A stretch of 64,000 nucleotides of DNA from Flexibacter flexilis DSM 6793 (GTDB lineage: Bacteria > Bacteroidota > Bacteroidia > Cytophagales > Flexibacteraceae). The stretch spans positions 1-64,000 of the forward strand of contig NZ_FOLE01000005.1 of the NCBI RefSeq assembly GCF_900112255.1. Direction: 5' to 3'. Under the pieces are notes generated by a model that was not told the origin of the DNA, ran no database searches, and was given only the letters and a program-made list of their open reading frames with translations. Position numbers and translations under genes: made by a program. This document shows, one piece after another, positions 8,297 through 62,559 of the stretch (the stretch's first letter is position 1; each line of letters begins with the position of its first letter).

Positions 8297-8775
8297 AAGG
8301 CATTGTGCCCGATACTTATGCCATTGCGCCCGATTCTTATGCCATTGCGCCCGATTCTTATGCCATTGCGCCAGATTCTTATGCCGTTGCGCCAGATTCT
8401 TATGCCGTTGCGCCAGATTCTTATGCCGTTGCGCCCAATTCTTATGCCGTTGCGCCCGATACTCATGCCGTTGCGCCCGATACTCATGCCGTTGCGCTAG
8501 ATTTTCATGCCGTTGCGCTAGATTTTCATGCCGTTGCGCTAGATTTTCATGCCGTTGCGCTAGATTTTCATGCCGTTGCGCTAGATTTTCATGCCGTTAT
8601 GCTAGATTTTCATGCCGTTATGCTAGATTTTCATGCCGTTATGCTAGATTTTCATGCCGTTATGCTAGATTTTCATGCCGTTATGCTAGATTTTCATGCC
8701 GTTATGCTAGATTTTCATGCCGTTATGCTAGATTTTCATGCCGTTATGCTAGATTTTCATGCCGTTATGCTAGAT
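8297..8775. repeat. 21-bp tandem repeat array (about 22 units, graded)
   Basis: About 22 uninterrupted units of exactly 21 bp with no spacers. The unit changes stepwise along the array: the first copies carry CCATTGCGCCCGATTCTTAT, the middle ones switch to CCGTTGCGCC, and the last nine are identical with CCGTTATGCTAGATTTTCAT. Because 21 is a multiple of three, several frames on both strands stay open across it, but none has a credible start, composition or homology. It fills most of the 683-base gap between the thioredoxin-like gene and the Crp/Fnr gene. About 115 bases after it hold nothing I recognise. Confidence 0.95.
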
Positions 8776-25191: not shown

Positions 25192-27964
25192 TTATTTGCT
25201 CAATACGATTTGTTTGGTAGCAGAGCCTTTCGCCGTTGCTACTTTAAGCGTATAAACGCCTGTAGCTTGGCTACTCAAATCTAACACGTTAGACGAGGCA
25301 GCAAGTGTACCAGCAGCGACTTTTTGACCATACACATTATACACTTCGTACGCTGCTGACTCTTCCAAATCTGCTATCTCAACATTGACCATGCCCGTAC
25401 TTGGAACGGGGTAAACAGATACGTTAAACGATTCTTCCCCTAAACGACCGCCAGCAGGTAAGGTAGTGAAAGTAGATAAAGTCGACCACTCGTTCCAATC
25501 TTCTCCCACAGGATTACAGGCATTGCGTATTTGCCACTCATACGTCGTACTGGCACTTAAACCATATAACGTATAGTTCGTTACTACTGCCCCTGTCATA
25601 ATAGCTGACCATGTACTGCTACCCTGAATGCGATAACGTAATTCAAACTTACTCATGCCTGTTGGATAACTTGGCCAGCTAAATTTAACCGTATTGACAC
25701 TGGTCGTTGCCGTTGCATCCAATGATACACAAGATGGGCCAGATAACGTCGTAAAGGTGCTAATACTTGACCATGCATTCCAATCCTCTCCCACAGGATT
25801 ACAGGCATTGCGTATTTGCCACTCATACGTCGTACTGGCACTTAAACCATACACCGTATAGTTCGTCACTACTGCCCCTGTCGTAATCACAGTCCATGTG
25901 CTGCTACCCTGAACGCGATAACGCAACTCAAACTTGTAAGTACCTGAAGTATAACCTGGCCAACTGAATCTCGCGGCACTCGCTCCTGCTATCGCCGTCG
26001 CTGGGCTCAATGGTGAACAGGTCGGAGTTTCTAATGTTGTAGCAGAAAGGGTCTGCCAAGTGGTATTAGCATCACCCGCAACACAATGGTTTCTTACTCT
26101 TAAATCATACGTTGTACTTGGGGTAAGACCTGTAATACGATACTCAGTTGCCGTACTTGCTGGATTCGCTCCATACCAAACAGAAGTCGAGGCTGCTTTC
26201 CATTGAACTTGTATCGCAGTATAAGAACCTGCATCCCAAGTCAGCTTAATTGCCCTTGCACCCAATATTGCTATGATGTTGGATGGATTGTTACAATCCA
26301 CCACTAGGGTATAGTCCTTTGTCAATACACAAGTTCCAACAGAAGCAGAAATAGTAAAACTATAAGCCCCTGCCGTTGTTGGTGTTCCGCTAATTAAACC
26401 GCTTGAGCTTAATGTAAGCCCATCAGGTAATGCACCTGAAGTTAATGTAAATACTGCACTTGGTGCATTATCTACACTTAACTGCTGGCTATAAGAAACA
26501 GACTTTGAAATATTTGACAAAGCATTAGGGCTGACAGTCGTATAGTAACCACAAGTATTTAGCCGTGTAAAATAAATATCATAAGCACCAACACTTGTCA
26601 TAGAAGTACCTGTGCTAGGATTAGAGGGATCAAAAATTCTCGTACCACTGAAACTACCTGCGGTGTATAAGTTGCTTGGCGTAGCTGCTACTATTCCTCC
26701 TGCAACTGCATCAAAACCAAATGCATCCGAATAGTTCGAGGTATTGATGCGCATACTAAATGAACGATTAAAACTACTGTTACCAAAATCAACAGATGCT
26801 GTATTGCTAACAGCCGCATTAGCATACAATATGCCATTGTTATCTAAAGTTAATCCTGTTATATTCGCGCTATTTCCCCCTGCAAACTGAGTTACTAAAT
26901 TGCTGAAACTACCGTCCGAACCTAACTTCACTATATAACCAGTACGACCTGCACCTAACGACGGAATATTGGTACTAATTCCTCCATTCATTACAGACAA
27001 TGCACTACCTGTATGATAACCACTGGCATAAACATTATCTGTCTCCGAATCTATTGCCAAGCCATAAACTTCATCTGATGTACTACTTGCTATGCGTGTC
27101 GTCCACTGATGAGCTCCTGAGAGCGACAATTTCGAAACAAAACCATCTTTACTACCCAAGTATGATATAGATCCACTATTTCCAACATTAATAGAAGCAT
27201 TAAAATACCCACTAAAATAAACACCACCAGCATTCACCTTCAATTGATGTAAGACAGGAAAATTACCTGAATGCACTCTTGTTACCCAATTTGGGTTGCC
27301 ACTACTTATATCAAAAGATGCAACAAAACCGTCTGCATAATTTGATGGAAATAACACATTTGTACCATTTCCAAAATTGATAGTGTTACTAAGTACACCC
27401 GCTAAATATACTTTATCTTCATGAGTGGCTAATGCGTAACCAACCTCCCCATTTGCACTGCTGCCCAACACTTTAAACCATATTAATTCCCCAGTTCCTC
27501 CATTAAATTTAGCAAAAAAGATATCTGATTGACTCACAGAACCTGTAGAATTAAATGTCGTGCCATCTACTGTTACAGCACCTCTGATACTGCCTTGTAA
27601 CATAAACATCTCCTGCTGCATCATAAGCTATACTATTGCTTATTAAGACAGAGTCTCCCTCTATAGACTGCGCCCAAACAACACTACTACTCGAATAGGG
27701 TGCTGTTAGCTTTAATATATAAATATTGCGGTCTTCGCCACCATTTCCTCCTGTAGGTGCTGGTAATACATTTGTTCCAAATGAAGGACTTCCCCAATAG
27801 TAACCCGTAGAATAGGTAGTTCCATTTGCTGGATTGACTGCCGTTCCTGTTGAAATTTGTGACGCAGCGTCCCCAAAGCTTACGCTATTTGATAACGTTG
27901 GCACTTGGGCGTAACTAAAACCCAATGACATGGCAGCCATTAGTGTTATAAATGTTTTTTTCAT
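25192..27964 (-). pseudogene. T9SS-sorted protein with SBBP propeller, Ig-like and FN3 domains, broken by a +1 frameshift
   Basis: Two frames make one gene: 27964 down to about 27600 (signal peptide ending SYAQ, start of an SBBP-type repeat region) and about 27600 down to 25192. The first frame reads DVYVTRQYQR where dropping one base from the AA of ACAAGG (near 27595) gives DVYVTGSIRGAVTVDGT, the normal SBBP repeat phrase, and joins the long frame. The total length, 2773 bases, is one more than a multiple of three. Domains of the repaired protein: SBBP propeller (about 50-450), a putative-Ig repeat (LPDGLTLSSSGLISGTP), three fibronectin type III domains (the last two nearly identical, about 288 bp apart) and a type A sorting domain. 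It is either a real inactivating mutation or a sequencing error. Confidence 0.82.
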
Positions 27965-28191
27965 AAAAAAATAAATTTATTTCAAATAAAATGAATAAAA
28001 AAATAAATAGGTGGCTGAAAAACACCGAAAGGTAAAAAACAATACAATACAAAAAAATCACTCAATATACATAGACAAAACAAAAAAAATACAATATGTA
28101 TTCGATAATCAAATACTTTTTGTACAAAAAAAAGAATATCAGCAATTTATGTTTTTTATTATATTATCAAATAAAATATTTTTTATGAAAA

Positions 28192-28227
28192 CAAAAAAAA
28201 GCCGCACCCTAATAATTGGGTGCGGCT
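28192..28227 (-). terminator. Terminator after fabF
   Basis: A perfect stem with arms AGCCGCACCC and GGGTGCGGCT; on the minus strand it is followed by eight T. It is a near copy of the hairpin at 25133-25170. Confidence 0.85.
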
Positions 28228-28259
28228 AACAATAGAGACTTTTTCTATTTTAATAGCTT

Positions 28260-29504
28260 TTACTTCTCAAATTTCTTGAAAAGCGAAACGGCCACGTGAC
28301 CGCCAAAACCAAAAGTATTGCTCAAGGCATAACGAACGGTGCGTTTCTCGGCTTTGCCCAACGTAAAGTTGAATTTGTCGGCTACGCTTGGTTCTACGTT
28401 TTTGGTGTTGATGGTTGGCGGAACGATGTCTTCTTGCGTGGCTTTGATACAAGCAATCGCTTCGATAGCTCCCGCCGCGCCCAACAAGTGTCCCGTCATG
28501 GACTTAGTGGCACTGATATTTAATTGTGGATTTGCACCAAAAACGCGCTCAATCCCAATTAGTTCGCTCATATCGCCCATTGGCGTAGAGGTCGCGTGCG
28601 GATTGATATAATCTACGTCTTCGGGCTTAATGCCTGCTTCGTTGAGGGCTTCCCACATACCCAAAAACGCACCTTCGCCGTTCGGGTGTGTGCCCGTAAG
28701 GTGATACGCGTCGCCAGCCATACCACCGCCTACTACTTCCGCAATAATTGGTGCACCACGGCGCACGGCACTTTCATAGCTTTCCAAAATAATAGCTCCT
28801 GCACCTTCGCCCATTACGAAACCATCGCGCGACACGTCGAAAGGACGCGAAGCCGTTTCATACTCATCGTTATTGGTAGAAAGAGCCTTTGCCGCATTAA
28901 AACCACCGATTGTCGTTTCGATAAGCGGAGCTTCCGAACCACCCGTAATAATCATGTCGGCTTTGCCCCAACGAATATAGTTGAATGCGTCAATAATAGC
29001 CGTGTTGGACGTGGCACAAGCCGAAACCGTCGCGAAGTTCGGGCCACGCAAGCCGTATTTCATTGAAATAATGCCTGCGGCAATGTCCACAATCATTTTA
29101 GGAATAAAGAAAGGATTGAAACGCGGTGTTCCGTCGCCTTTGGCAAACTCCATTACTTGCTCCTGAAACGTAATGATACCGCCGTTTCCGCTACCCCAAA
29201 TCACCCCGATACGGTTACAGTTGAGGGAAGAAAAATCAATTTCAGCATTTTTAACCGCCTCATCTACTGCGATTAAGGCATATTGCGTGTAGAGGTCGTA
29301 TCGGCGAGCCTCGCTTTTTTCGATGAATTGTTGTGGGTCAAAATTCTTTAACTCACAGCCAAAACGTGTTTTGAACTTTGATGCGTCGAAGCGCGTCAGT
29401 AGTCCTGCGCCACTTTTTCCACTAATAAGGCCATTCCAAAAATCGGTCATGTTGTTCCCGATAGGCGTTAGAGCCCCTAAGCCAGTAACGACAACTCTTT
29501 GCAT
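28260..29504 (-). CDS. fabF: 3-oxoacyl-ACP synthase II
   Basis: A 414-residue condensing enzyme of fatty acid elongation, joining malonyl-ACP to the growing acyl-ACP in the cytosol. The KAS Cys-His-His triad is visible: cysteine in TVSACATSN (about 165), histidine in NPHATSTPMGD (about 305) and histidine in KSMTGHLLGAAGAIEA (about 340), with the glycine-rich NTFGFGGHVAV near the end. The length is typical. acpP, the usual upstream neighbour, is not here; a DUF3667 gene is upstream on the same strand. Its own terminator follows. Confidence 0.96.
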   Translation of the reverse strand: MQRVVVTGLGALTPIGNNMTDFWNGLISGKSGAGLLTRFDASKFKTRFGCELKNFDPQQFIEKSEARRYDLYTQYALIAVDEAVKNAEIDFSSLNCNRIGVIWGSGNGGIITFQEQVMEFAKGDGTPRFNPFFIPKMIVDIAAGIISMKYGLRGPNFATVSACATSNTAIIDAFNYIRWGKADMIITGGSEAPLIETTIGGFNAAKALSTNNDEYETASRPFDVSRDGFVMGEGAGAIILESYESAVRRGAPIIAEVVGGGMAGDAYHLTGTHPNGEGAFLGMWEALNEAGIKPEDVDYINPHATSTPMGDMSELIGIERVFGANPQLNISATKSMTGHLLGAAGAIEAIACIKATQEDIVPPTINTKNVEPSVADKFNFTLGKAEKRTVRYALSNTFGFGGHVAVSLFKKFEK

Positions 29505-29625
29505 TTTGTGTTTTTAGTTTCTTGTACCAATTGTAATAAACATAGACGCGCTGTTTGATTTAATATTCAATAACACTAATCAACCAGTGTCTTGTCTGCT
29601 CAAATGTAGAAAGATTTGGTATTTC

Positions 29626-30663
29626 CTAAAACAAAAAGAAAGCCACCATCAAATCAAAAATAAAGGAGATGAAGAGCATTATCAGGAAAAAGTACGAAAA
29701 GATGCCCATTTTGAAAATGGTTTTCGTCCAACTTTGCCCGTACATACGGCGCATGGCCAACACAATATATACAGGGATAATTACCCAAATCGCAATAGAT
29801 AAGAATTCTTCAATTTTCCCCAAAAAATCAATATACTCCAAAGAGGCCAGAAAAAATAATGCAAAAAAAACGAAAGCCTGCGTATATAAAACAAAAACAA
29901 AGTGTTGGACATACAGCGTTTTGCGCCGAATATACAGCAATTTGAGTAGCCAAGCCATGAGCGGAATAAGTAAAATCATGGCAATGGACAAATTCTCCCG
30001 AACTGTATTTAAGTAAGAATCCACACCGTCTTCTTTGGAAATATGAATGGCTTGTTTGGCAGCCACACGTGTCATAAACGTTTTTTCTATTTTCAAAGAA
30101 TCCAGCAACGAATCGGCAGAAATCGTTTTACGGATTCCGTGTAAAGGTATGCCTTTTAACACGCCCAAATCCAAGTCCAGTTCGTCGGTTTGGGTTTTAA
30201 CTTTCGGGTTTTTCTGTTTTTCGGACACACGCGCCAACGAATCGGCTTTGCGTTTCTTTTTCTGCGCCAAATCAATTTTCTCTAATACCTTCGCCGTTGT
30301 ATCCGAACTGGTTTTTACGCCTTCTTTCACGTTGTCCAAAAAACCTTGATTAGGCGAATACGACAACGTAAAGAAATACAAAAAGCTGGCAATCAAGTAC
30401 AAACGCAATGGCGCAACATAATTCACGCGGCGGCCTGCGTTAAATTCTACGGCCAAAAAACCAGGTTTAAAGAAAAACGGAAACAAACTCCGAAACACGC
30501 GCGAATCCAAATTGAGGGCTTCTTCCGCAATTTCGGAAGCCAACACCCGCACCGAAACCGTTTTGTCGTTATTCTCTTGGCCACACTGCGGACAATAATT
30601 TTCGTCGTGTTCAAATTGGAATCCACAGTTAAGGCAATGGTCAGTTTTACGGCGTGTTTTCAT
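29626..30663 (-). CDS. DUF3667 zinc-ribbon membrane protein
   Basis: 345 residues. An N-terminal zinc ribbon (CLNCGF...CPQCGQ, residues 10-29) is followed by the conserved DUF3667 block (FKPGFLAVEFNAGRRVNYVAPLRLYLIASFLYFF, about 68-102). Next comes a charged Lys/Asp-rich soluble loop (about 115-225), then three or four transmembrane helices (about 228-345). The family is widespread in Bacteroidota and has no known function. It ends in an inner-membrane segment and has no nearby partner gene that would explain it. Confidence 0.88.
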   Translation of the reverse strand: MKTRRKTDHCLNCGFQFEHDENYCPQCGQENNDKTVSVRVLASEIAEEALNLDSRVFRSLFPFFFKPGFLAVEFNAGRRVNYVAPLRLYLIASFLYFFTLSYSPNQGFLDNVKEGVKTSSDTTAKVLEKIDLAQKKKRKADSLARVSEKQKNPKVKTQTDELDLDLGVLKGIPLHGIRKTISADSLLDSLKIEKTFMTRVAAKQAIHISKEDGVDSYLNTVRENLSIAMILLIPLMAWLLKLLYIRRKTLYVQHFVFVLYTQAFVFFALFFLASLEYIDFLGKIEEFLSIAIWVIIPVYIVLAMRRMYGQSWTKTIFKMGIFSYFFLIMLFISFIFDLMVAFFLF

Positions 30664-30725
30664 GTGTATCTAAAAAATTGATTGCTGTGCGAAAATAAAA
30701 AAAAATGCCTACGGGCTAATTATCA

Positions 30726-30756
30726 TTTGCTCAAAACATTGCTTTTTTTAGGTTTA
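30726..30756 (+). promoter_or_regulatory. Probable promoter of the membrane protein gene
   Basis: TTTG, 19 bases, then TAGGTTTA (one mismatch from TAnnTTTG), 28 bases before the start codon at 30785. Confidence 0.4.
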
Positions 30757-30784
30757 AGCCCTTTTTCCAAAAAAACAATCATGT

Positions 30785-31288
30785 ATGAAAAGTAACAAAA
30801 TACTCGTTTGGGTCGTAACACTTATTTATTTGGCTTCCCAAATCCATTTGGCTTATATGGTCAATAGCCTCAAACCCAGTTTAGTGCAGTTGCAACTCAC
30901 CTTCACGGCGGCGGGCTTTTGGGGCATTATTGAGCAATGGAAAACCGAAGGTTTACTAATTTATCTTTCGCATTTTAGTTGGGACTTGTTTCATGTGCTG
31001 GCTTATTCGGCTTTTGGCATCGTCATGGTACAGCAGACTACCTTTTTCAAAAAATTTAGTCCCGTTTGGTATCGTTTCTTTTTGGCGGCTTTGCCTGTGG
31101 CTGGGATTATGGATTTGATAGAAAACGAGCTGCATTTATACATCATCACGCTACCGCACGGCACAGCAACTACACTTGTACCGTTAGCGGCAACTTGTTC
31201 GCTTATCAAATGGATTTTGGCATTAGGTTTTATGGGAACACTGCTCAAGCAACTATTTACTAATCTTTTAGGCTTTAGAATCCTATAA
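30785..31288 (+). CDS. Uncharacterised four-helix membrane protein
   Basis: 167 residues I do not recognise. Four hydrophobic segments are visible (about 7-27, 60-82, 95-115 and 130-158). The second segment is preceded by SHFSWDLFHVLAY, and GIMDLIENELHLYI separates the third and fourth, so conserved-looking charged and histidine residues lie near the membrane. It has its own promoter-like pair upstream. The first of three copies of a short repeat (AGGCTTTAGAATCCTAT) overlaps its last codons, so the C-terminus may have been altered by repeat insertion. Confidence 0.65.
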   Translation: MKSNKILVWVVTLIYLASQIHLAYMVNSLKPSLVQLQLTFTAAGFWGIIEQWKTEGLLIYLSHFSWDLFHVLAYSAFGIVMVQQTTFFKKFSPVWYRFFLAALPVAGIMDLIENELHLYIITLPHGTATTLVPLAATCSLIKWILALGFMGTLLKQLFTNLLGFRIL

Positions 31289-31352
31289 GGTTTAATTTGC
31301 TCCACAGTCTTTGTCCTAACAGAAAAAATATACAAGTATGTATATTGTGTAT

Positions 31353-31386
31353 TACAAATAAAAATGGTCTGTGAGGGCACAGACCA
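31353..31386 (-). terminator. Terminator of the 33-residue peptide gene (REP-like hairpin)
   Basis: A perfect 9-bp stem (TGGTCTGTG with CACAGACCA, 4-base loop) is followed on the minus strand by TTTTTATTTG. The stem is a member of the REP-like family seen again at 62.1-62.5 kb. Confidence 0.6.
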
Positions 31387-31410
31387 TGGGATAGCAAGCT
31401 CACAATAAAT

Positions 31411-31512
31411 TTAATTAAGAAGCCAAGCAATAAGCTTTCCTACAGCTTTTCCTAATTCATATGCAAAACTGCCAACGGTTGGAAAGAACAATGTCATAAG
31501 TTTTAAAATCAT
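31411..31512 (-). CDS. Candidate 33-residue hydrophobic peptide gene
   Basis: A 33-codon ORF starting MILKLMTLFFP and ending LIAWLLN. It is strongly hydrophobic with two lysines, one glutamate and a GKAVG (GxxxG) helix-packing motif, suggesting a membrane-active or membrane-inserted peptide. Support for a real gene comes from its surroundings: a full-consensus promoter (TTG-N19-TATATTTG) 34 bases upstream, an AT-rich leader with a TAAAA-type ribosome site, and a hairpin plus T run after the stop. There is no double-glycine leader or neighbouring export gene. It could be a bacteriocin-like peptide, a type I toxin or a small membrane protein; I cannot choose. Confidence 0.4.
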   Translation of the reverse strand: MILKLMTLFFPTVGSFAYELGKAVGKLIAWLLN

Positions 31513-31545
31513 AATTGTATATTTTTTATAGTTAAAAGTTAGGCA

Positions 31546-31575
31546 CAAATATAAATATTTTATAATTAATCGCAA
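31546..31575 (-). promoter_or_regulatory. Consensus promoter of the 33-residue peptide gene
   Basis: On the minus strand: TTG, 19 bases, TATATTTG, a full match to the Bacteroidota consensus. Transcription should start near 31539, giving a leader of about 27 bases. Confidence 0.6.
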
Positions 31576-31742
31576 TAATTATTTTGAAATATGTTTAATG
31601 TAAGGCGTAATGTACTAAGTACCGACAATTAAACAACGATATTCAATATATATAATTATCATATTCTTATAAAAAAATGTATCATTAACTTATAGCAGGT
31701 ACTTATAAAAAATTATTGTTCATGTTACTTAAATTAAATATA

Positions 31743-32064
31743 TAGTATTTTGCTTACGAAGCAAATACTATCATGAACAACCTTCTGGCAAAGTATCAAA
31801 TAATTTTGAATAAACCTTATGAGCTTGTTTTGGAAATTTAGAGAATTTTATCCAACATAATAGAACAAACAGCAAGTGTAATAAAAGCAATGGTGTTTTT
31901 TTTCGTAATCCTTTGATAATCTGCGGCAAAAATTAAGTCAAACAAAAGTTCTCTACACTTGCCATCTATTCTTTTGTATGGCCAGTCTCTTGCCAGTAGA
32001 GGTTTTACAACCTCTAAATCTTATAGGCTTTAAAACCCTATCAGGTTTAATTTCCTGAACTTTT
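31743..32064. other. Gene-free stretch with an inverted repeat, a possible transposase remnant and a short repeat
   Basis: An inverted repeat (ATAGTATTTTGCTT with AAGCAAATACTAT, one bulge) lies at about 31743-31772. On the minus strand, about 31834-31980, a frame without a start reads YKRIDGKC...DYQRITKKNT...LAVCSIMLDKIL and stops; its rhythm resembles the extreme C-terminus of an IS5-type transposase, but weakly. At 32021-32050 lies a second copy of the AGGCTTTAAAACCCTAT repeat. Confidence 0.35.
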
Positions 32065-32832
32065 TTAATCAAAAAAGCAGAATAGCGAATAAAATACCAA
32101 AGCCAGTGGCACGGACAGCCCCACACTAAGCGGCACAACAAGGACACTGGACACTCCCAACAACGACAACAAACCGTACAAAACGCCAAAACCAACCAGA
32201 GTCAGCAGTCCCAATATCGCGAGCATTTCGGCCAACAATGCCACCATCATTACGCCCGCAATAATGAGTATAAACGGATAGGCAATCGCTGTAATCAGAT
32301 TGACCAGCGAAGACATACAACCCGCAAAGCCGCGGCGGTTGGTCGTATAGCGCGGGCGCGAACTTTTAACCCATTCCCGCACACTGTTATAATTTTTGAT
32401 GGGGTCGCACAAAATACACGTAAAGCACGGCTTAGAAGAAGCAGGCATAATTACTTGCGTAGAATCCTGTAATTGAGCTTGTTGTGCTTGCAATGCCAAA
32501 ACTAATTGCGCTTGTAGTTGGGTTTTTTGCGCCGCAGGCATCAAGCGCACGAGGCGTTTGGCCACTTTGAGACGGCGGTTTACTTTGCGCAACTGCTTGG
32601 CCCTGAACTTGGCATCTTGGCGCATAAAACCCTGATTAGTAGCTATTTTTTCTTGTAAAATATTTTCGGGTAAAGACAAAGTATCGGCGGCGGCAAGGGC
32701 TTTCGGGGCTTTGGCGGTAGGGTTGTGGCGCACGGTTCGGAACACATAATAACGCGGTTTGCTGCCGCAACTCCACAAGCTGCACACAATCAAAAATAGC
32801 CCAATTAATCTAAAAACGTAGTGTAGTTTCAT
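32065..32832 (-). CDS. Lipoprotein with C-terminal membrane helices, function unknown
   Basis: 255 residues. The N-terminus is a lipoprotein signal with lipobox SLWSC (cysteine at 22). A basic, Ala/Gln-rich helical stretch (about 70-130) contains MRQDAKFRAKQLRKVNRRLK and a QAQLVLALQAQQAQLQ segment that could form a coiled coil. A short cysteine motif CFTCILC follows near 137, then two or three hydrophobic segments (about 175-255). The combination of lipid anchor and membrane helices is unusual. Many small lipoproteins in Bacteroidota have this mixed layout and no known role. Confidence 0.65.
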   Translation of the reverse strand: MKLHYVFRLIGLFLIVCSLWSCGSKPRYYVFRTVRHNPTAKAPKALAAADTLSLPENILQEKIATNQGFMRQDAKFRAKQLRKVNRRLKVAKRLVRLMPAAQKTQLQAQLVLALQAQQAQLQDSTQVIMPASSKPCFTCILCDPIKNYNSVREWVKSSRPRYTTNRRGFAGCMSSLVNLITAIAYPFILIIAGVMMVALLAEMLAILGLLTLVGFGVLYGLLSLLGVSSVLVVPLSVGLSVPLALVFYSLFCFFD

Positions 32833-32992
32833 TCGTTTTGTTTTAAAAAAATCATTACTTTACATCAAAAATAAAACATTACTGTTAATAATACAGAAAT
32901 AGTATTTATATTTGGAAATCAATAAATTAGTTTAAAAACAAACTAATTTTATCAACTTATTTATTTTCTAATCCCTTAAACTCCTTATCATT

Positions 32993-34564
32993 ATGAATTA
33001 CCATTTTACTCGGCTCTTTGGACTCCTTTTTTTTGCCTTTAATAGCTGGGCGCAAACCGCACCAAACGCCAAAACAACTCACGCCCCACTTATCCCCAAC
33101 GCCTCAAATATCAACCCTTTGACCAGAACCACCGCCCTTAAAGCTCCCAACAACAATTCTTCTACCACAGATACTTATGCCATAAAACAGCAATTGGACA
33201 GTGTCGTTGCGCCACTTTCCAAAAAATATTGCTACACCTACAATGCCAGCGGCAAAACCCTATCCGAAATACAATACTCATGGGCTGCTGGCATAAATTC
33301 TTGGATATACTATCTCAAAAATGAATACACCTATGATACCAATGGCAGACAGACACAAAGCAGTACATATATAAATAGTATGTTTAACACTTGGATTGGA
33401 AGCGAAAAAAACGAATATACTTATAATGCCATTGGGAATAATACCTTAATCATTTACTATGTATGGAACACGACCAACCACAATTGGCAATATTCTACCA
33501 AACATGAATATATTTACAATACAAACAACCAATTAATTCAAGATACCTATTACAATTGGAGTAACAATGTTTGGGTTGCCTATTCCAAGATTAATTATAC
33601 CTACACCAACAATAATCAAACACAAGCTGCTACCTATAAATGGAATGCGAACAACAATAATTGGACTAATTATTCAAAAGAAGATTATGTTTATAACAAT
33701 GTCAATCAATTAACCCAAAAAATTACGGCTCACTGGGGAGGCAATGTATGGGCAAATGATTATAAATACGAGTATGCTTATATCAATAACAATCTAACAC
33801 AAATCATCACTAACTCATGGGGCACAACAAGCAATACTTGGAGTAATTACATAAAAGAAGAATACACCTACAATACCAACAACCAAGTATTGTTGTACAC
33901 TACTTATTATTTTTCAAACAATTCATGGGTAGGTATGTCTAAATTTGAATATATCTACGATGCAAATAGCTCCCTAACCACCAATATTCATTCTACTTGG
34001 AACTCTTCTAATAGCAGTTGGCGGAATTATCTTAAAAGTGAATTCACCTACAATTCCAACAACGACGAAACTTCAGAAAGTTATTATGCTTGGGACAATA
34101 CAGCTAATACTTGGCTAAGCTATGGCAAACAAGATTATACTCACAATACAGCCTATGCCAAAACGGCTTTGGTCTTACCGTATAGCTTATCAAATGCCCG
34201 TTTTTTCTCAAGCATGGTTCTTTCCCGCCAAAACTCTTCATGGGTCAATAGCACTTGGCAAGTAGATAGTACTTTTACCTACTACTATTCCCCACAAGGA
34301 GCTACCTCTGTGCGCGAAAATGAGCAAACAGCGGCCAGTTTGTATCCTGTTCCAGCCAAAGACATACTCAATATCGCGTTGCTCGACAATGAAAATGAAG
34401 CAACAATAGAAATATTTGACATGCAAGGCCGAAAAGTATTAGCACAAAATCTGTTGCAAAACGTTTCTCAAATCACCGTAAATCAGTTGCAAACAGGTTT
34501 GTATTTGTACAATATCCGCACTACAAACGAACGCGTCCAAAACGGAAAATTTGTGAAGCAATAA
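32993..34564 (+). CDS. T9SS-sorted Asn/Tyr/Trp-rich repeat protein
   Basis: 523 residues. A signal peptide ends near NSWAQ (residue 21). Residues about 75-400 hold about ten or eleven repeats of 35-40 residues, each with the pattern W-(NNW)-Y-K-EYTYNxNNQ. The strand-turn-strand phrase is reminiscent of YD/RHS repeats, but I do not see an RHS core or toxin end. The last 80 residues are a type A sorting domain (SLYPVPAKD, GLYLYNI, ending GKFVKQ). The asparagine and aromatic content is far above that of its neighbours. It is probably a secreted surface protein that folds as a repetitive beta structure. A strong terminator follows. Confidence 0.85.
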   Translation: MNYHFTRLFGLLFFAFNSWAQTAPNAKTTHAPLIPNASNINPLTRTTALKAPNNNSSTTDTYAIKQQLDSVVAPLSKKYCYTYNASGKTLSEIQYSWAAGINSWIYYLKNEYTYDTNGRQTQSSTYINSMFNTWIGSEKNEYTYNAIGNNTLIIYYVWNTTNHNWQYSTKHEYIYNTNNQLIQDTYYNWSNNVWVAYSKINYTYTNNNQTQAATYKWNANNNNWTNYSKEDYVYNNVNQLTQKITAHWGGNVWANDYKYEYAYINNNLTQIITNSWGTTSNTWSNYIKEEYTYNTNNQVLLYTTYYFSNNSWVGMSKFEYIYDANSSLTTNIHSTWNSSNSSWRNYLKSEFTYNSNNDETSESYYAWDNTANTWLSYGKQDYTHNTAYAKTALVLPYSLSNARFFSSMVLSRQNSSWVNSTWQVDSTFTYYYSPQGATSVRENEQTAASLYPVPAKDILNIALLDNENEATIEIFDMQGRKVLAQNLLQNVSQITVNQLQTGLYLYNIRTTNERVQNGKFVKQ

Positions 34565-34583
34565 AAAGCAAATATTTGTAGTC

Positions 34584-34626
34584 CAAAGCCGCCGCTAAGT
34601 AATTTAGTGGCGGCTTTGCTTTTTTT
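34584..34626 (+). terminator. Terminator after the repeat protein gene
   Basis: A 15-bp stem (CAAAGCCGCCGCTAA with TTAGTGGCGGCTTTG, one G-T pair) and a T run. Confidence 0.9.
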
Positions 34627-34658
34627 AGTAATTTAGCTAAATTAAAAACAAGCTGGTA

Positions 34659-34666
34659 TAAATTTG
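34659..34666 (+). promoter_or_regulatory. Probable -7 element of uvrC
   Basis: TAAATTTG matches TAnnTTTG 18 bases before the ATG; no clear TTTG upstream element is seen at the right distance. Confidence 0.35.
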
Positions 34667-34684
34667 TAGCTTGAAATTGCGACC

Positions 34685-36502
34685 ATGAACAACGCCGAAG
34701 CACTCAAAGAAAGAATCCGACAACTGCCCGAACTGCCGGGCATCTACAAATATTTTGACCAAGAAAATACGCTGATCTACGTGGGCAAAGCCAAAAGCCT
34801 GCGCAAGCGTGTGAGTAGTTATTTTACCAAAACCCAAACCGACCGCAAAACCATGCGGCTGGTAAGCCAAATCCGACAAATTGAATATATCGTTGTGGAC
34901 ACCGAATACGATGCGCTGCTGCTCGAAAACAGCCTTATCAAAGAGCATCAGCCCAAGTATAACATTATGCTCCGCGACGACAAAACCTATCCGTACATTT
35001 GCATCACCACCAACGAACGTTTTCCGCGCGTGTTTCCGACCCGCCGCGTAGTGCGCAATGCAGGCATTTACTTTGGTCCTTATCCGAGTGGCCGCACCAT
35101 GAATGCCTTGTTGGAATTGCTCAAAAAACTCTACACGTTCCGCACCTGCAACTACGCCCTCACGCAGGCCGCCGTAAACGCCCACAAATTCAAAGTTTGT
35201 CTGGAATACCACATCGGCAACTGCAAAGGGCCTTGCGAGGCCAAACAAACTGAAGCCGACTACAACGCCGAAATTACGCAGGCTTCGCACATCATCAGGG
35301 GACATTTGACCATTGCCAAGCAATATTTTAAAGAACAAATGTTGCTGGCCGCCGAAAACTACGCCTTTGAGGAAGCGCAACGCTACAAAGAAAAACTGGC
35401 CTTGCTCGACAACTACCAAAGCAAGTCCGTAATCGTAAATCCGAACCTCTCGGACATAGATGTTTTTTCGATTCTCTCCGACGACAACTCCGCGTATATC
35501 AATTACTTGCGCATCGTGGACGGAAGCATTAACCTCACGCACAACGTAGAAATTAAGAAGAAACTCAACGAAAGCCCCGAAGATATTTTGGCTTTCGCGC
35601 TGCTACAATTGCGCCAGCAGTTTGGCAGCCAATCCGAAGAAGTACTGGTCAATATTCCGCTTTCGCTGGGCATTCCGCGCCTCGCGATTCACGTCCCGCA
35701 AATCGGCGACAAACGCAAACTATTGGATTTATCTATCAAAAATACGTTGTTTTTTAAACGAGATTTGATGAATAAAGCCACCGAAACGCCCAAGCCCGAC
35801 CGCTATGAACGTGTACTTAAAAAGTTGCAAGCCGATTTGCGCCTAACACAGTTGCCCGACCATGTAGAATGTTTTGATAACTCTAACATACAGGGTTCGA
35901 GTCCTGTGGCCGCAATGGTTTGTTTCAAAAATGGTAAGGCTGCGCCCAAAGATTACCGACATTTTAACATCAAAACGGTAGTCGGCCCCGACGATTTCGC
36001 GTCTATGTACGAGATTGTTACGCGCCGTTACAGCCGCCTAATTGCCGAAAACCAACCTTTGCCCAAACTCATCATCATCGACGGCGGTAAAGGCCAACTC
36101 GGCGCGGCTTGCGAGGCACTCAAAGCCCTGAATATTTACGGACAAATTCCCATTATTGGCATTGCCAAGCGTTTGGAAGAAATCTATTACCCCGAAGACC
36201 CGCTGCCGCTTATGTTGCCCAAAAAGTCTGAAAGTCTGATTTTTATACAACGAATCCGCGACGAAACGCACCGTTTCGCCATCACGTTCCACCGCAGCCA
36301 GCGCAGCAAAAAGAATTTGAAGCTGGAAGTAGAAAAAGTAAAAGGGCTGGGCGCGAAAACCATTGCCATCGTGTATCGCGAGTACAAATCCCTGAACCTG
36401 ATTCGGGACGAAGACCGCACGGACATCGAAGCACTTATCGGGGCAAAACGCACGGAATTACTCTTCGATTACCTCAAAGAGCGGCGAGGCGAGGCGGAAT
36501 GA
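34685..36502 (+). CDS. uvrC: Excinuclease ABC subunit C
   Basis: A 605-residue nuclease that makes both incisions around bulky DNA lesions after UvrA/UvrB loading. The N-terminal GIY-YIG domain (about 15-95) has LPGIYKYF and LIYVGKAKSLRKRV. A UVR/UvrB-interaction motif lies near 205-245 (EEAQRYKEKLALLDNY). The RNase H-like endonuclease domain (about 380-540) contains ECFDNSNIQGSSPVAAMVCF and LIIIDGGKGQL, and a helix-hairpin-helix end follows. The length is normal. udk follows on the same strand after about 100 bases. Confidence 0.97.
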   Translation: MNNAEALKERIRQLPELPGIYKYFDQENTLIYVGKAKSLRKRVSSYFTKTQTDRKTMRLVSQIRQIEYIVVDTEYDALLLENSLIKEHQPKYNIMLRDDKTYPYICITTNERFPRVFPTRRVVRNAGIYFGPYPSGRTMNALLELLKKLYTFRTCNYALTQAAVNAHKFKVCLEYHIGNCKGPCEAKQTEADYNAEITQASHIIRGHLTIAKQYFKEQMLLAAENYAFEEAQRYKEKLALLDNYQSKSVIVNPNLSDIDVFSILSDDNSAYINYLRIVDGSINLTHNVEIKKKLNESPEDILAFALLQLRQQFGSQSEEVLVNIPLSLGIPRLAIHVPQIGDKRKLLDLSIKNTLFFKRDLMNKATETPKPDRYERVLKKLQADLRLTQLPDHVECFDNSNIQGSSPVAAMVCFKNGKAAPKDYRHFNIKTVVGPDDFASMYEIVTRRYSRLIAENQPLPKLIIIDGGKGQLGAACEALKALNIYGQIPIIGIAKRLEEIYYPEDPLPLMLPKKSESLIFIQRIRDETHRFAITFHRSQRSKKNLKLEVEKVKGLGAKTIAIVYREYKSLNLIRDEDRTDIEALIGAKRTELLFDYLKERRGEAE

Positions 36503-36596
36503 CAAGTACTAAAATAAAAAACCTGATAGGATTATATATTTCTGCTGCCAAATCGTAATCTTTTGGGCAAATCTTTTTTTTTTCACAAACAGAATT

Positions 36597-36604
36597 TAAT
36601 TTTG
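36597..36604 (+). promoter_or_regulatory. Probable -7 element of udk
   Basis: TAATTTTG matches TAnnTTTG and ends only five bases before the ATG at 36610, so a transcript from it would be leaderless or nearly so. No upstream TTTG is seen at the expected spacing. Confidence 0.3.
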
Positions 36605-36609
36605 TGGCC

Positions 36610-37251
36610 ATGACTACAGGAACTACACCGTTTATCGTTGGTATCACAGGAGGCAGTGCTTCAGGCAAAACACTGTTTCTCAAGCGATTGCTTAATAGCT
36701 TTAAGCCTTCAGAGGTTTGCCTCATCTCCCAAGACAACTATTATAAGACGCGCGACCATCAGCCCATCGACGAAAACGGCGTGCATAATTTTGATACTCC
36801 TTTTTCTATTGACTTCGATTTGTATCGCAACGATATTCTTTCGCTTCGTGAAGGCAACGTGGTAACCAAACAAGAATATACTTTCAATAATCCGAACGTA
36901 GTGCCTAAGATGCTCACGTACACGCCTGCGCCGATTATTATTGTGGAAGGAATTTTTGTGTTTTATTACCCAGAAGTGGCCAAAATGCTTGACCTGAAAG
37001 TATTTATTGATGCCAAAGAACATATCAAACTCAAACGCCGCATCGTGCGCGACAACAACGAACGTGGTTACGATTTGGAAGATGTACTCTACCGTTACGA
37101 ATATCACGTAATGCCGACGTACGAAAAATACATTAAGCCTTTCAAAGGTGATGCCGATATTGTAGTGCCGAACAACCAAAATTTTGAACGTGCCTTAGAA
37201 GTGTTGGTCGCTTATCTAAAAACCAAAATTGAACAACCTCAAACGGTTTAG
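36610..37251 (+). CDS. udk: Uridine kinase
   Basis: 213 residues from the ATG at 36610; a GTG two codons earlier is in frame but overlaps the probable promoter. It phosphorylates uridine or cytidine in pyrimidine salvage. Walker A GGSASGKT is at about 12-19. SQDNYYKTRDHQP, the uridine-binding FDTPFSIDFDLY and the FVDAKEHIKLKRRIVRDNNERG lid-type segment follow. The length matches the family. Phosphoribulokinase is the nearest alternative but does not fit the genome context. Confidence 0.93.
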   Translation: MTTGTTPFIVGITGGSASGKTLFLKRLLNSFKPSEVCLISQDNYYKTRDHQPIDENGVHNFDTPFSIDFDLYRNDILSLREGNVVTKQEYTFNNPNVVPKMLTYTPAPIIIVEGIFVFYYPEVAKMLDLKVFIDAKEHIKLKRRIVRDNNERGYDLEDVLYRYEYHVMPTYEKYIKPFKGDADIVVPNNQNFERALEVLVAYLKTKIEQPQTV

Positions 37252-37274
37252 TTTTCATAAAAATTTAGTTTGAT

Positions 37275-37313
37275 AAAAGGCTAAAATCTAACTGATTTTA
37301 GCCTTTTATTTTA
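37275..37313 (+). terminator. Terminator after udk
   Basis: A perfect 14-bp stem (AAAAGGCTAAAATC with GATTTTAGCCTTTT) followed by ATTTT. Confidence 0.85.
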
Positions 37314-37486
37314 AAAAAACATACAATAATTACAAACTTAGCACTTGCCTTGTTTTTTGGGGAAAATAAAACCAAAAATCTATCACAGAGTTATTACATT
37401 TGAGAACGCAAACGTATTAACCAGAAAACACACTAATACTTTTTCTATAATTTTCTTTATTTTTTAGCATAATATCAAAGTACACG

Positions 37487-38227
37487 ATGTTTTCATTCTT
37501 TTTTCGTAAAAAAAATGAAGTTGAGACGTTAAATCCGCCCATTACCGCAGATATGCACTCTCACCTACTGCCTGGCATTGACGACGGCGCAGCCAACATG
37601 GAAGAAACCTTGCAACTCATCGAAGCATTTATGCAGAATGGTTACAAACACTTGATTACTACGCCGCACGTCATCGACGATTTTTATAAAAATACGCCCG
37701 AAATCATTTTGAGAAAATTAGCCGAAGTACGCCAAGCCGTTGCCGCCAAAGGCTGGGACATCAAGATTGATGCCGCCGCCGAATACTTGATAGACGAGTT
37801 TTTCTTGGAAAAACTAAATAATAATGTTCCATTTCTGAGTTTTGGAGCCAATAAGTACGTGCTTATCGAAACGCCGTTTATGAATGAGCCAATGTATTTG
37901 AAAGATGTTATCTTCAAACTGCAAAGCGCGGGTTATTGGCCAGTATTTGCCCACCCCGAACGCTACACGTATTTGTGCAACGATTTTAAACGTGCCAAAG
38001 AAATTTTCAATACGGGCGTGTTGTTTCAAGTGAACTTGCCATCGCTGGCGGGATATTATTCGCGCCCAATTCAGCAGTTAGCCGAACGCCTAGTTGATGA
38101 AAATATGGTGCATTTTGTGGGTAGCGATTGCCATAAAATGAAGCATATCGACGCGCTGGAACAGACAAAACGCACAAAACACTACAAAAAGCTATTAGAA
38201 ATGCCATTATTAAACCATTCATTATGA
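37487..38227 (+). CDS. CpsB/YwqE-type PHP tyrosine phosphatase
   Basis: 246 residues of the PHP metal-dependent phosphatase family that dephosphorylates bacterial tyrosine kinases controlling polysaccharide export. Metal ligands are seen in DMHSHLLPGIDDGA (about 22-35), TTPHV (about 58), the conserved AHPERY (about 156-161) and GSDCHKM (about 214). The length is normal. No capsule kinase (Wzc-type) or polysaccharide gene is adjacent, so its partner kinase must be elsewhere. There is no signal peptide. Confidence 0.9.
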   Translation: MFSFFFRKKNEVETLNPPITADMHSHLLPGIDDGAANMEETLQLIEAFMQNGYKHLITTPHVIDDFYKNTPEIILRKLAEVRQAVAAKGWDIKIDAAAEYLIDEFFLEKLNNNVPFLSFGANKYVLIETPFMNEPMYLKDVIFKLQSAGYWPVFAHPERYTYLCNDFKRAKEIFNTGVLFQVNLPSLAGYYSRPIQQLAERLVDENMVHFVGSDCHKMKHIDALEQTKRTKHYKKLLEMPLLNHSL

Positions 38228-55279: not shown

Positions 55280-56220
55280 GACCCCTCCTTGTGTTTCTCA
55301 AAGACCCCTCCTAAATCCTCCCTAAGGGGAGGACTTTAACAGGAATTGCAGGTGGAATATTCAAAAGACCCCTCCTAAATCCTCCCCAAGGGGAGGACTT
55401 TAACAGGAATTGCAGGTGGGATAACAGGAATTGCAGGGAGGATAACAGGAATTGCAGGGAGGATAACAGGAATTGCAGGAAGGATAACAGGAATTGCAGG
55501 AAGGATAACAGAAGTCGCAGGTGGGATAACAGAAGTCGCAGGTGGGATAACAGAAGTTGCAGGTGGGATAACAGAAGTTGCAGGTGGGATAACAGAAGTT
55601 GCAGGTGGGATAACAGAAGTTGCAGGTGGGATAACAGAAGTTGCAGGTGGGATAACAGGAGTCGCGGAAAGGAAATATTAAAACCCCATCTAAATCTTCC
55701 CCAAGGGGAAGACTTTAACAGGAATTGCAGGTGGAATATTCAAAAGACCCCTCCTAAATCCTCCCCAAGGGGAGGACTTTAATGTCCAGTGGGGAGGACT
55801 TTACTTTGCGGAGGACTTCAACCCTCTCCACTGGGGAGGTCGGGTGGGGTTCTAAACGCGGTTGAAAAAAAAACTCCTAAATCTTGGGTTGAAAAAAGAC
55901 CCCTCCTAAATCCTGTGCTTCAAAAGACCCCTCCTAAATCCTCCCCAAGGGGAGGACTTCAAATGCCCAAGGGGAGGACTTCAAATGCCCAAGGGGAGGA
56001 CTTCAAATGCCCAAGGGGAGGACTTCAAATGCCCAAGGGGAGGACTTTACATTTCCCCTCCCCACTGGAGAGGCTGGGTGGGGTTCTAAACGCGGTTGAA
56101 AAAAAAACTCCTTCTGTTTCCCAAAACCCCTCCTAAATCCTCCCCAAGGGGAGGACTTCAAATGCCCAAGGGGAGGACTTTACTTTGGGGTGGCTGGCTG
56201 GGTGGGGTGGCGTGGGGTAT
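55280..56220. repeat. Large repeat cluster upstream of the restriction-modification gene
   Basis: The 1118-base gap 55158-56275 has no gene. It holds more than ten copies of the palindromic unit CCCCTCCTAAATCCTCCCC/GGGGAGGACTT, several in close succession at 55940-56045. A 21-bp tandem array of about 13 units (GATAACAGGAATTGCAGGTGG changing to GATAACAGAAGTTGCAGGTGG) runs from about 55400 to 55670. The family is the reverse complement of the cluster at 45.4-45.8 kb. ORFs across it are repeat artefacts. Confidence 0.92.
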
Positions 56221-59410: not shown

Positions 59411-60103
59411 ATGATACAATTTTTGAAAAAGGTCAAACGTCTTTTGGGCGTTATGGCCACCTTATTGAAAGCGAATCGCAAGACTATTTACTTCAATTTT
59501 AAATACTTACCGTTTCGTCAGGCCCTTCGGCTCCCCATCAACGTATCATCGCAAGTTCACTTAGCCCGAATGGGCGGACAAATACAGTTTGATTGTCCGA
59601 TACATACGGGAATGATACAACTCGGACACGGATACGTGGGGATATTTGATAAACAAAAATCTCGGAGTATCTGGGAAGTAACAGGGACTGTTATTTTTGG
59701 GGGTACGGCCAATATTGGTCATGGTTCAAAAATCTGCGTAATGAATGGAACACTGCGTTTGGGTAAGAATTTTACGATTACGGCGGAATCCTCGATTGTA
59801 ACAGCGTGCGAGATTCATTTCGGAGACGATTGTTTGTTGTCTTGGGATGTCTTGGTCATGGACACCGATTTTCATCACATAAAAAACCAGTCAGGCGCAA
59901 TAATCAATGCGCCAAGCCCCATTCGGATCGGCAATAAAGTTTGGATTGGATGCCGCTGCCTCATTTTGAAAGGCGCAGCGATTGCCGACAACACCGTTAT
60001 TGGAGCAAATTCGTTGGTAAGCCGCAAATTGCCCAAAGAAAATGCCATCTATGGCGGCCAACCAGCTCAATTATTGAAAGAAGAAATTAGTTGGGATTAC
60101 TAA
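59411..60103 (+). CDS. Hexapeptide-repeat acyltransferase
   Basis: 230 residues. A left-handed beta-helix (about 80-215) is built from hexapeptide repeats, ending with the catalytic and substrate region MDTDFHHIKNQSG, PIRIGNKVWIGCRCLILKGAAIADNTVIGANSLV and IYGGQPAQLLKE. It resembles the WbbJ/maltose O-acetyltransferase group that acetylates cell-surface sugars. The first 60 residues are basic and probably sit at the membrane. It follows the restriction gene by 36 bases and ends where the 84-bp repeat array begins. Confidence 0.88.
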   Translation: MIQFLKKVKRLLGVMATLLKANRKTIYFNFKYLPFRQALRLPINVSSQVHLARMGGQIQFDCPIHTGMIQLGHGYVGIFDKQKSRSIWEVTGTVIFGGTANIGHGSKICVMNGTLRLGKNFTITAESSIVTACEIHFGDDCLLSWDVLVMDTDFHHIKNQSGAIINAPSPIRIGNKVWIGCRCLILKGAAIADNTVIGANSLVSRKLPKENAIYGGQPAQLLKEEISWDY

Positions 60104-60480
60104 CCCCTCCTAAATCCTCCCCACTGGGGAGGACTTTTAAATATTGCCGCCCCCCATGCGCAGGAACGAAATATCAAAGACTCCTAACCCCTTCTAAATC
60201 CTCCCCAGTGGGGAGGACTTTTAAATATTGCCGCCCCCCATGCGCAGAAACGAAATATCAAAGACTCCTAACCCCTCCTAAATCCTCCCCAATGGGGAGG
60301 ACTTTTAAATATTGCCGCCCCCCATGCGCAGAAACGAAATATCAAAGACTCCTAACCCCTCCTAAATCCTCCCCAATGGGGAGGACTTTTAAATATTGCC
60401 GCCCCCCATGCGCAGAAACGAAATATCAAAGACTCCTAACCCCTCCTAAATCCTCCCCAATGGGGAGGACTTTTAAACCA
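60101..60480. repeat. 84-bp tandem repeat array (about 4.5 units)
   Basis: Four full copies and a part of an 84-bp unit: a palindromic TCCTCCCC/GGGGAGGA module, then GGACTTTTAAATATTGCCGCC and ATGCGCAGAAACGAAATATC. The copies differ mainly at the loop (ACT, AGT, AAT) of the palindrome. The 28-residue phrases translated from it are artefacts. The next 45 bases to the secreted-protein gene hold nothing else. Confidence 0.92.
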
Positions 60481-61955: not shown

Positions 61956-62559
61956 GAAAAAGCAGGTTTTAAACCCACAATTTTACCAAAAAAAAGTAGA
62001 TACGCATAACCGTACATTTCTACTCTAACATCAAACGGCGGAAAGATGCCACGCCTACGGCGTTAGAAATGAATATCACCATGCTTAGCTACCAATATTT
62101 CAATCCTAACGGATTTATTTTCAATGTTTGGTAGTGGTCTGTGAGGACACAAACCATGGGGAAGAACGAAATATCAAAGACCCCTCTTTGTTTTTCCCAA
62201 GACCCCTCTTTGTTTTTCCCAAGACCCCTCCTAAATCCTCCCCAAGGGGAGGACTTGAACAGAAGTCAGTTAAGGGTCTGTGAGGACACAAACCACGGGG
62301 AAGGCCGCGCAAAAAGCCGTCAGGCTTGTCATCTTTATAGAAATGATAATGTTTGTAAAAAAAAGAACGCCGTAGGCGTGACATCTGCCCAAACACATTC
62401 TACAAAAAGAGTTATCTTATATACGGTAGTGGTCTGTGAGGACACAAACCACAGAGAAGTTTTTTTTGGAAATGATGCGCAGGAACGAAATATCAAAGAC
62501 CCCTCCTAAATCCTCCCCAAGGGGAGGACTTTTGTTCTAACCTGTAAAAAAACTGGACA
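61956..62559. repeat. Repeat mosaic between the channel gene and the 32-residue ORF
   Basis: Gene-free. It holds three copies of the REP-like hairpin GGTCTGTGAGGACACAAACC at 62135-62156, 62275-62295 and 62430-62451, and two TCCTCCCC palindromes near 62235 and 62515. An inverted pair of a 20-bp sequence (AACGCCGTAGGCGTGACATC, one mismatch) lies at 62045-62064 and 62366-62385. Confidence 0.85.

Follow-up and report, generated by a model that had tools for sequence, protein, structure and literature searches.

A candidate micro-gene for an amphipathic membrane peptide in Flexibacter flexilis, with possible masking of its start codon by 5′–3′ pairing

Our best reading of a short intergenic cassette in the genome of Flexibacter flexilis DSM 6793, held tentatively, is a lineage-restricted micro-gene for an amphipathic membrane peptide, the mRNA of which may be controlled by 5′–3′ pairing as in type I toxins. 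That the locus is a real micro-gene rather than none is, on balance, the favoured view. The cassette was found in a window of 64,000 nucleotides (contig NZ_FOLE01000005.1, positions 1 to 64,000), to which all coordinates without a prefix refer. A promoter, a leader, an ORF and a hairpin with a T run are present on the minus strand in the order claimed by an earlier sequence-only reading, and just beyond them the leader and start codon recur in inverted orientation, a feature which that reading had missed.

Promoter, leader and terminator of the cassette

The features of the locus, read directly from the sequence, are as follows.

31573–31575, minus strand: −33 box TTG, an exact match, with an N19 spacer
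31546–31553, minus strand: −7 box TATATTTG, with zero mismatches
31513–31541, minus strand: 5′ leader of about 29 nt, the inner part of which is the 5′ arm of an inverted repeat
31411–31512, minus strand: 33-codon ATG ORF MILKLMTLFFPTVGSFAYELGKAVGKLIAWLLN, with a TAA stop at 31411
31364–31387, minus strand: perfect 10-bp hairpin ATGGTCTGTG-CCCT-CACAGACCAT, a copy of a dispersed palindrome
31357–31363, minus strand: T-rich tract TTTTATT directly 3′ of the hairpin, completing terminator 1
31510–31527, minus strand: 5′ arm AAAAAATATACAATTATG, covering leader and start codon, complementary to the 3′ arm at 17 of 18 positions
31323–31340, minus strand: 3′ anti-leader arm CATACTTGTATATTTTTT, shortly beyond terminator 1, pairing with the leader in the computed fold of a 224-nt RNA
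31323–31346, minus strand: weak second hairpin AATATACA-TACT-TGTATATT followed by TTTT, a possible second end (fold −5.7 kcal/mol)
30785–31288, plus strand: convergent neighbouring gene for a 167-aa hydrophobic protein
32065–32832, minus strand: gene for a 255-aa protein, on the other flank of the intergenic region 31289–32064

The statement that the region holds no ORF of annotated size is correct for 31289–32064, with the reservation of one frame of 125 aa, an unlikely one, that runs antisense to the neighbouring gene. Genes of Flavobacterium johnsoniae are reported to have the G of TANNTTTG at −5 and a mean leader of 33 nt, and the well-translated ones are marked by A at −3, −6, −12 and −13 (PMC6847099). 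Placed by the same rule of G at −5 (PMC6847099), transcription of the micro-gene would start at about 31541. The ATG at 31512 is the first one downstream of the promoter and of this inferred start, and its leader carries A at all four positions.

The significance of the promoter was evaluated in a genome sample of 1,253,136 of the 4,249,974 bases, 152,203 of which are intergenic. A crude gene set of 965 long ORFs was made by taking the longest ones that do not overlap, with a minimum length of 120 aa, and some of the background numbers depend on that set; the 267 intergenic ORFs used as the background include the micro-gene ORF itself, and the control for promoter counts was the reversed, uncomplemented sequence. 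The word TTG-N18–20-TANNTTTG occurs 72 times in the intergenic DNA of this 1.25-Mb sample versus 13 times in the control, and a long ORF lies within 200 nt of 50 of the 72. The remaining words precede seven first-ATG ORFs of at least 30 aa (one in the control). Three of the seven, recognised by eye, resemble and presumably encode the ribosomal proteins bL21, bL31 and bS21; the other four comprise one that is tRNA-end-like, two doubtful cases and the micro-gene, which in 1.25 Mb is the only one of the seven that a hairpin terminator follows within 110 nt. In the background the same is true of 8 of the 267 intergenic ORFs, and among the long ORFs of 66 of 963. A search for TAHHTTTG, the −7 word by itself, gave 46 small ORFs versus 27 in the control, two versus none of them with a terminator. 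From the terminator frequency in the background and the single control ORF, we estimate about 0.03 chance cassettes per 1.25 Mb. A chance origin of the cassette is thus improbable, as had been proposed. Promoter and terminator by themselves fit a small RNA equally well.

The hairpin (31387–31364, followed on the minus strand by TTTTATTTG) is not a private terminator of the micro-gene: it belongs to a palindrome, TGGTYTGTGARGACACARACCA, of which about 30 copies are dispersed in the genome. Allowing up to three mismatches, a search for TGGTCTGTG-N4-CACAGACCA gave 30 places in the genome and none in the reversed control, and the window contains copies at 31365, 62135, 62274 and 62430 (0.01 expected). 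In the 29 copies examined (one place was left out), the fifth stem pair is T-A in 10, C-G in 13 and another pair in 6. The stem positions vary in step through compensatory changes, as in repetitive extragenic palindromes (REPs), and some copies are paired as doublets 42 bp apart. By a loose count, a T-rich exit is present on either side of just 7 of the 29 copies, so termination is not general to the family. The palindrome is present in 8 of 98 Cytophagales genomes (including this one), representing 7 of 60 genera, and the control gave none. The hairpin is similar to the GTAG/CGTC-tagged REPs described in PMC3733652 in that these are short and dispersed, with compensatory stem changes and doublets. 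Unlike in those REPs, GTAG directly precedes two copies only among those listed (62135 and 62430), and none of the Y1_Tnp matches (C5:269491, C10:129204 and C13:38239) adjoins a listed copy. An assignment as a REP with its own RAYT is therefore unsupported.

Other repeats were also present in the window and the genome. A 66-nt direct repeat (31262–31327 and 32017–32082, 74% alike) flanks the whole AT-rich island, and its core (AACCCTATCAGGTTT-like) recurs elsewhere in both. Dispersed inverted pairs of the GATGCCACACCTACGGCGTT type occupy several intergenic sites, including L180:9480–9660 and places in C2 and C3. At 31720–31780 and 31841–31999, the nested inverted repeat TTGTTCATG...CATGAACAA encloses a TAGTATTTTGCTT hairpin; an open 53-aa frame on the minus strand near it has no Pfam match and no second copy in its own genome, and repeat and frame are possibly the remnant of a gene or element. 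Tandem arrays are located at 55300–56047, 60100–60477 and 62177–62242, most of them containing CCCCTCCTAAATCCTCCCCAAGGGGAGGACTT-like units, and at 8318–8775 a 21-bp unit is repeated in tandem about 22 times (97% alike), overlapping open frames.

Inverted copy of the leader and predicted RNA folding

The inverted repeat formed by 31527–31510 and 31323–31340 has an ungapped complementarity score of 15, compared with 11 or less in 300 dinucleotide shuffles and 11 for the next of the 267 intergenic ORFs. A gapped alignment adds TTTGT-CCTAAC and gives a score of 17.25, which none of 5000 shuffles reached (maximum 14). Two points count against the best reading here: the repeat was found after the fact, and the gapped score is equalled at two other sampled intergenic loci, of which one is a dispersed repeat and one consists almost wholly of A/T. 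The arms match only each other in a genome search, which argues against a mobile element bounded by them. The strong part of the inverted duplication stops exactly at the start codon. Weaker similarity (TTTGT, CC) may run on into the promoter DNA upstream of the inferred start, and because this DNA is probably untranscribed, the extension would suggest an inverted duplication of DNA, which weighs against a selected function.

According to the computed folds, a 187-nt RNA (31541–31355) has a folding energy of −36.7 kcal/mol (z −1.54, 11 of 200 shuffles as good), and a 224-nt RNA (31541–31318) one of −51.4 kcal/mol (z −4.05, matched by 0 of 200 shuffles); in the latter, a 17-pair helix contains the inner part of the leader and the AUG. 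The computed probability that the region from −15 to +3 is unpaired is 0.40–0.48 for RNA ends near terminator 1 and falls to 0.083 at the end 31318, 37 bases further. With the 3′ arm shuffled, the mean for the start region is 0.43. Masking of the initiation region, a frequent but not universal trait of type I toxin mRNAs, is thus predicted in silico for RNAs that end at or past about 31323. The longer RNA might terminate at the second hairpin (31346–31323), although this hairpin and the long-range helix compete with each other. The masking arm also lies past a strong-looking terminator, and read-through may be rare, which is a further point against the best reading.

The peptide, its neighbourhood and rival explanations

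The predicted 33-aa peptide has a net charge of +2, a GRAVY of 1.08 (6.7% of the 267 background peptides are as high), a maximal 18-residue hydrophobic moment of 0.49 (10.5% as high) and the GxxxG motif previously pointed out (G21-KAV-G25). The structure modelled from the single sequence is one helix of residues 2–32 with a mean pLDDT of 87. The ORF is small and hydrophobic (<60 aa), as expected of a type I toxin, and the peptide is cationic and amphipathic, as expected of a leaderless or class II bacteriocin. Of the 267 background ORFs, 76 have a codon score at least equal to that of the micro-gene ORF, and lower scores occur in 7% of real gene chunks; codon usage does not separate the ORF from non-coding ORFs. 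The earlier proposal of a micro-gene for a membrane-active peptide thus remains the best reading on the promoter word, the leader and the helix model, with codon usage uninformative.

A homologue search, which the sequence-only reading had suggested, was run and returned no credible homologue of the peptide in genome sets of 98, 390 and 395, which overlap and include its own genome. There was no match in phages or viral contigs, and the plasmid search gave three sub-threshold rows (best E 3). No known toxin family or other entry was matched in Pfam, PHROG or the solved structures of the PDB, and the NCBIfam match, RinB at E 0.11, is below the cut-off. Besides the query's own place, 12 weak rows and 3 from the order set were all judged to be chance, most of them lying within long ORFs in other frames and most having stops. 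Two weak extra matches, considered as paralogues in the same genome, were rejected since they sit in other frames of long ORFs. The relatives drawn include no other genome of the genus, and the nearest UvrC in the genomes searched is 60% identical. By these searches, the peptide is an orphan, so far known in one genome.

A serious rival, which we consider somewhat unlikely, is that the same promoter and terminator delimit a non-coding small RNA of about 187 nt, the 33-codon ORF in it being a chance frame that is not usefully translated. Both flanking elements are strong, and the overlap of the codon score with non-coding ORFs and the lack of a homologue agree with this explanation; the same two properties of the ORF count against the best reading. 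On the other hand, no other ATG lies between the inferred start and that of the ORF, which is preceded by A at all four favoured positions, three of the seven ORFs behind isolated promoters are recognisable ribosomal proteins, and few background ORFs reach this hydropathy. In addition, the 187-nt RNA is not unusually structured, and no Rfam match was obtained.

Ten proteins encoded in 25192–38227 were scanned, and the families among them are beta-ketoacyl synthase, DUF3667, sorting-tail proteins, UvrC, PRK and CpsB/CapC; two of the ten have no family match. The convergent 167-aa protein has no Pfam match, no match in 10 other genomes of the family and two weak ones among 390 genomes of the order, and appears to be a near-orphan. 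No intrinsic terminator for its gene was found on the plus strand in 31200–31900, so that transcripts reading on from this gene could lie antisense to the micro-gene. A search of the plus strand in 31000–31900 for Bacteroidota promoters with at most one mismatch gave none, and this too stands against the best reading. A constitutive small membrane or secreted peptide, bacteriocin-like or accessory, with the inverted copy being incidental and the 167-aa protein a possible partner or immunity protein, would be quite unlikely. The cationic amphipathic helix, the nearly orphan neighbour and the similarity that may continue into DNA ahead of the presumed transcript start are consistent with it, but the strong part of the duplication ends exactly at the start codon, and the neighbour is convergent rather than co-directional. 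No bacteriocin, export, processing or immunity family is present among the ten proteins, and the bacteriocin-like character once proposed for the peptide has nothing specific in its favour. Finally, the absence of any gene is very unlikely: promoter-like words are frequent in AT-rich DNA, which readily yields them, AT is about 72% in 31300–31600 and the hairpin is a dispersed copy, but exact promoter words far exceed the control and mostly precede genes, far fewer than one such cassette is expected by chance in 1.25 Mb, and the T run follows the palindrome here, as it does in a minority of copies.

Proposed mechanism and comparison with type I systems

We propose a mechanism for the micro-gene based on its promoter, its terminator and the inverted leader copy. 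Transcription by RNA polymerase carrying the main sigma factor of Bacteroidota would start at about 31541. Transcripts of about 187 nt ending at the hairpin would have an accessible A-rich start region and would yield the 33-residue peptide, an amphipathic cationic helix probably destined for the inner membrane. Transcripts extending past the hairpin would include the anti-leader arm, pair their 5′ end with their 3′ end and remain silent. Peptide output would thus be set by termination or 3′ trimming. This reading is preferred because the promoter word is exact and predictive and leads the sole such cassette in 1.25 Mb, because the leader fits the initiation rules reported for Flavobacterium (PMC6847099) and the modelled helix has a high pLDDT, because the leader/3′ complementarity, the 224-nt fold and the drop in accessibility exceed the shuffles, and because masking by long-distance 5′–3′ pairing has been published for aapA and hok (PMC6733600).

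The 5′–3′ complementarity over the leader and start codon supports the earlier idea of a type I toxin. As to an antisense RNA antitoxin, the plus strand in 31000–31900 gave no promoter with at most one mismatch, and antisense RNA might come from read-through of the convergent gene. We do not claim that the micro-gene belongs to a type I toxin-antitoxin system, since there is no family match and both toxicity and antitoxin are putative. Type I systems are described in PMC12390103 as reported from Proteobacteria, Firmicutes and Tenericutes only, with a first cyanobacterial case in 2025, and in the parts of the literature retrieved for Bacteroidota, including Bacteroides and Flavobacterium, no case was recognised. 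That the locus represents the first type I toxin-like gene in Bacteroidota, with a self-masking leader and AUG, an output set by terminator choice and a convergent read-through mRNA that may serve as the antitoxin, is a distinctly improbable extension.

In aapA and hok, 5′–3′ pairing keeps the full-length mRNA closed until its 3′ end is lost (PMC6733600). The micro-gene shares with aapA/IsoA of Helicobacter a hydrophobic ORF of about 30 codons (90 nt in aapA3; PMC6733600) and a long-distance 5′–3′ closure, which in the micro-gene is predicted only. Unlike aapA/IsoA, it has no antisense promoter found and no profile-library match, and its role as a toxin is putative. Moreover, its mask covers the A-rich leader and the AUG instead of a Shine-Dalgarno sequence, and a terminator lies between ORF and mask, so that the choice of isoform would be made by termination or trimming. 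As in hok/Sok, the 3′ end would fold back on the 5′ region, and in hok it is removed before translation (PMC6733600). Unlike in hok/Sok, no Sok-like RNA was found, and the peptide has no profile match. The Hok peptide has about 50 residues, compared with 33 here. To our knowledge, Bacteroidota lack Shine-Dalgarno sites, which raises the question of what a self-masking toxin mRNA would mask in such a phylum. Within the toxin-like reading, the mRNA would therefore mask itself through the inverted copy, and the answer suggested by this locus is the A-rich leader together with the start codon.
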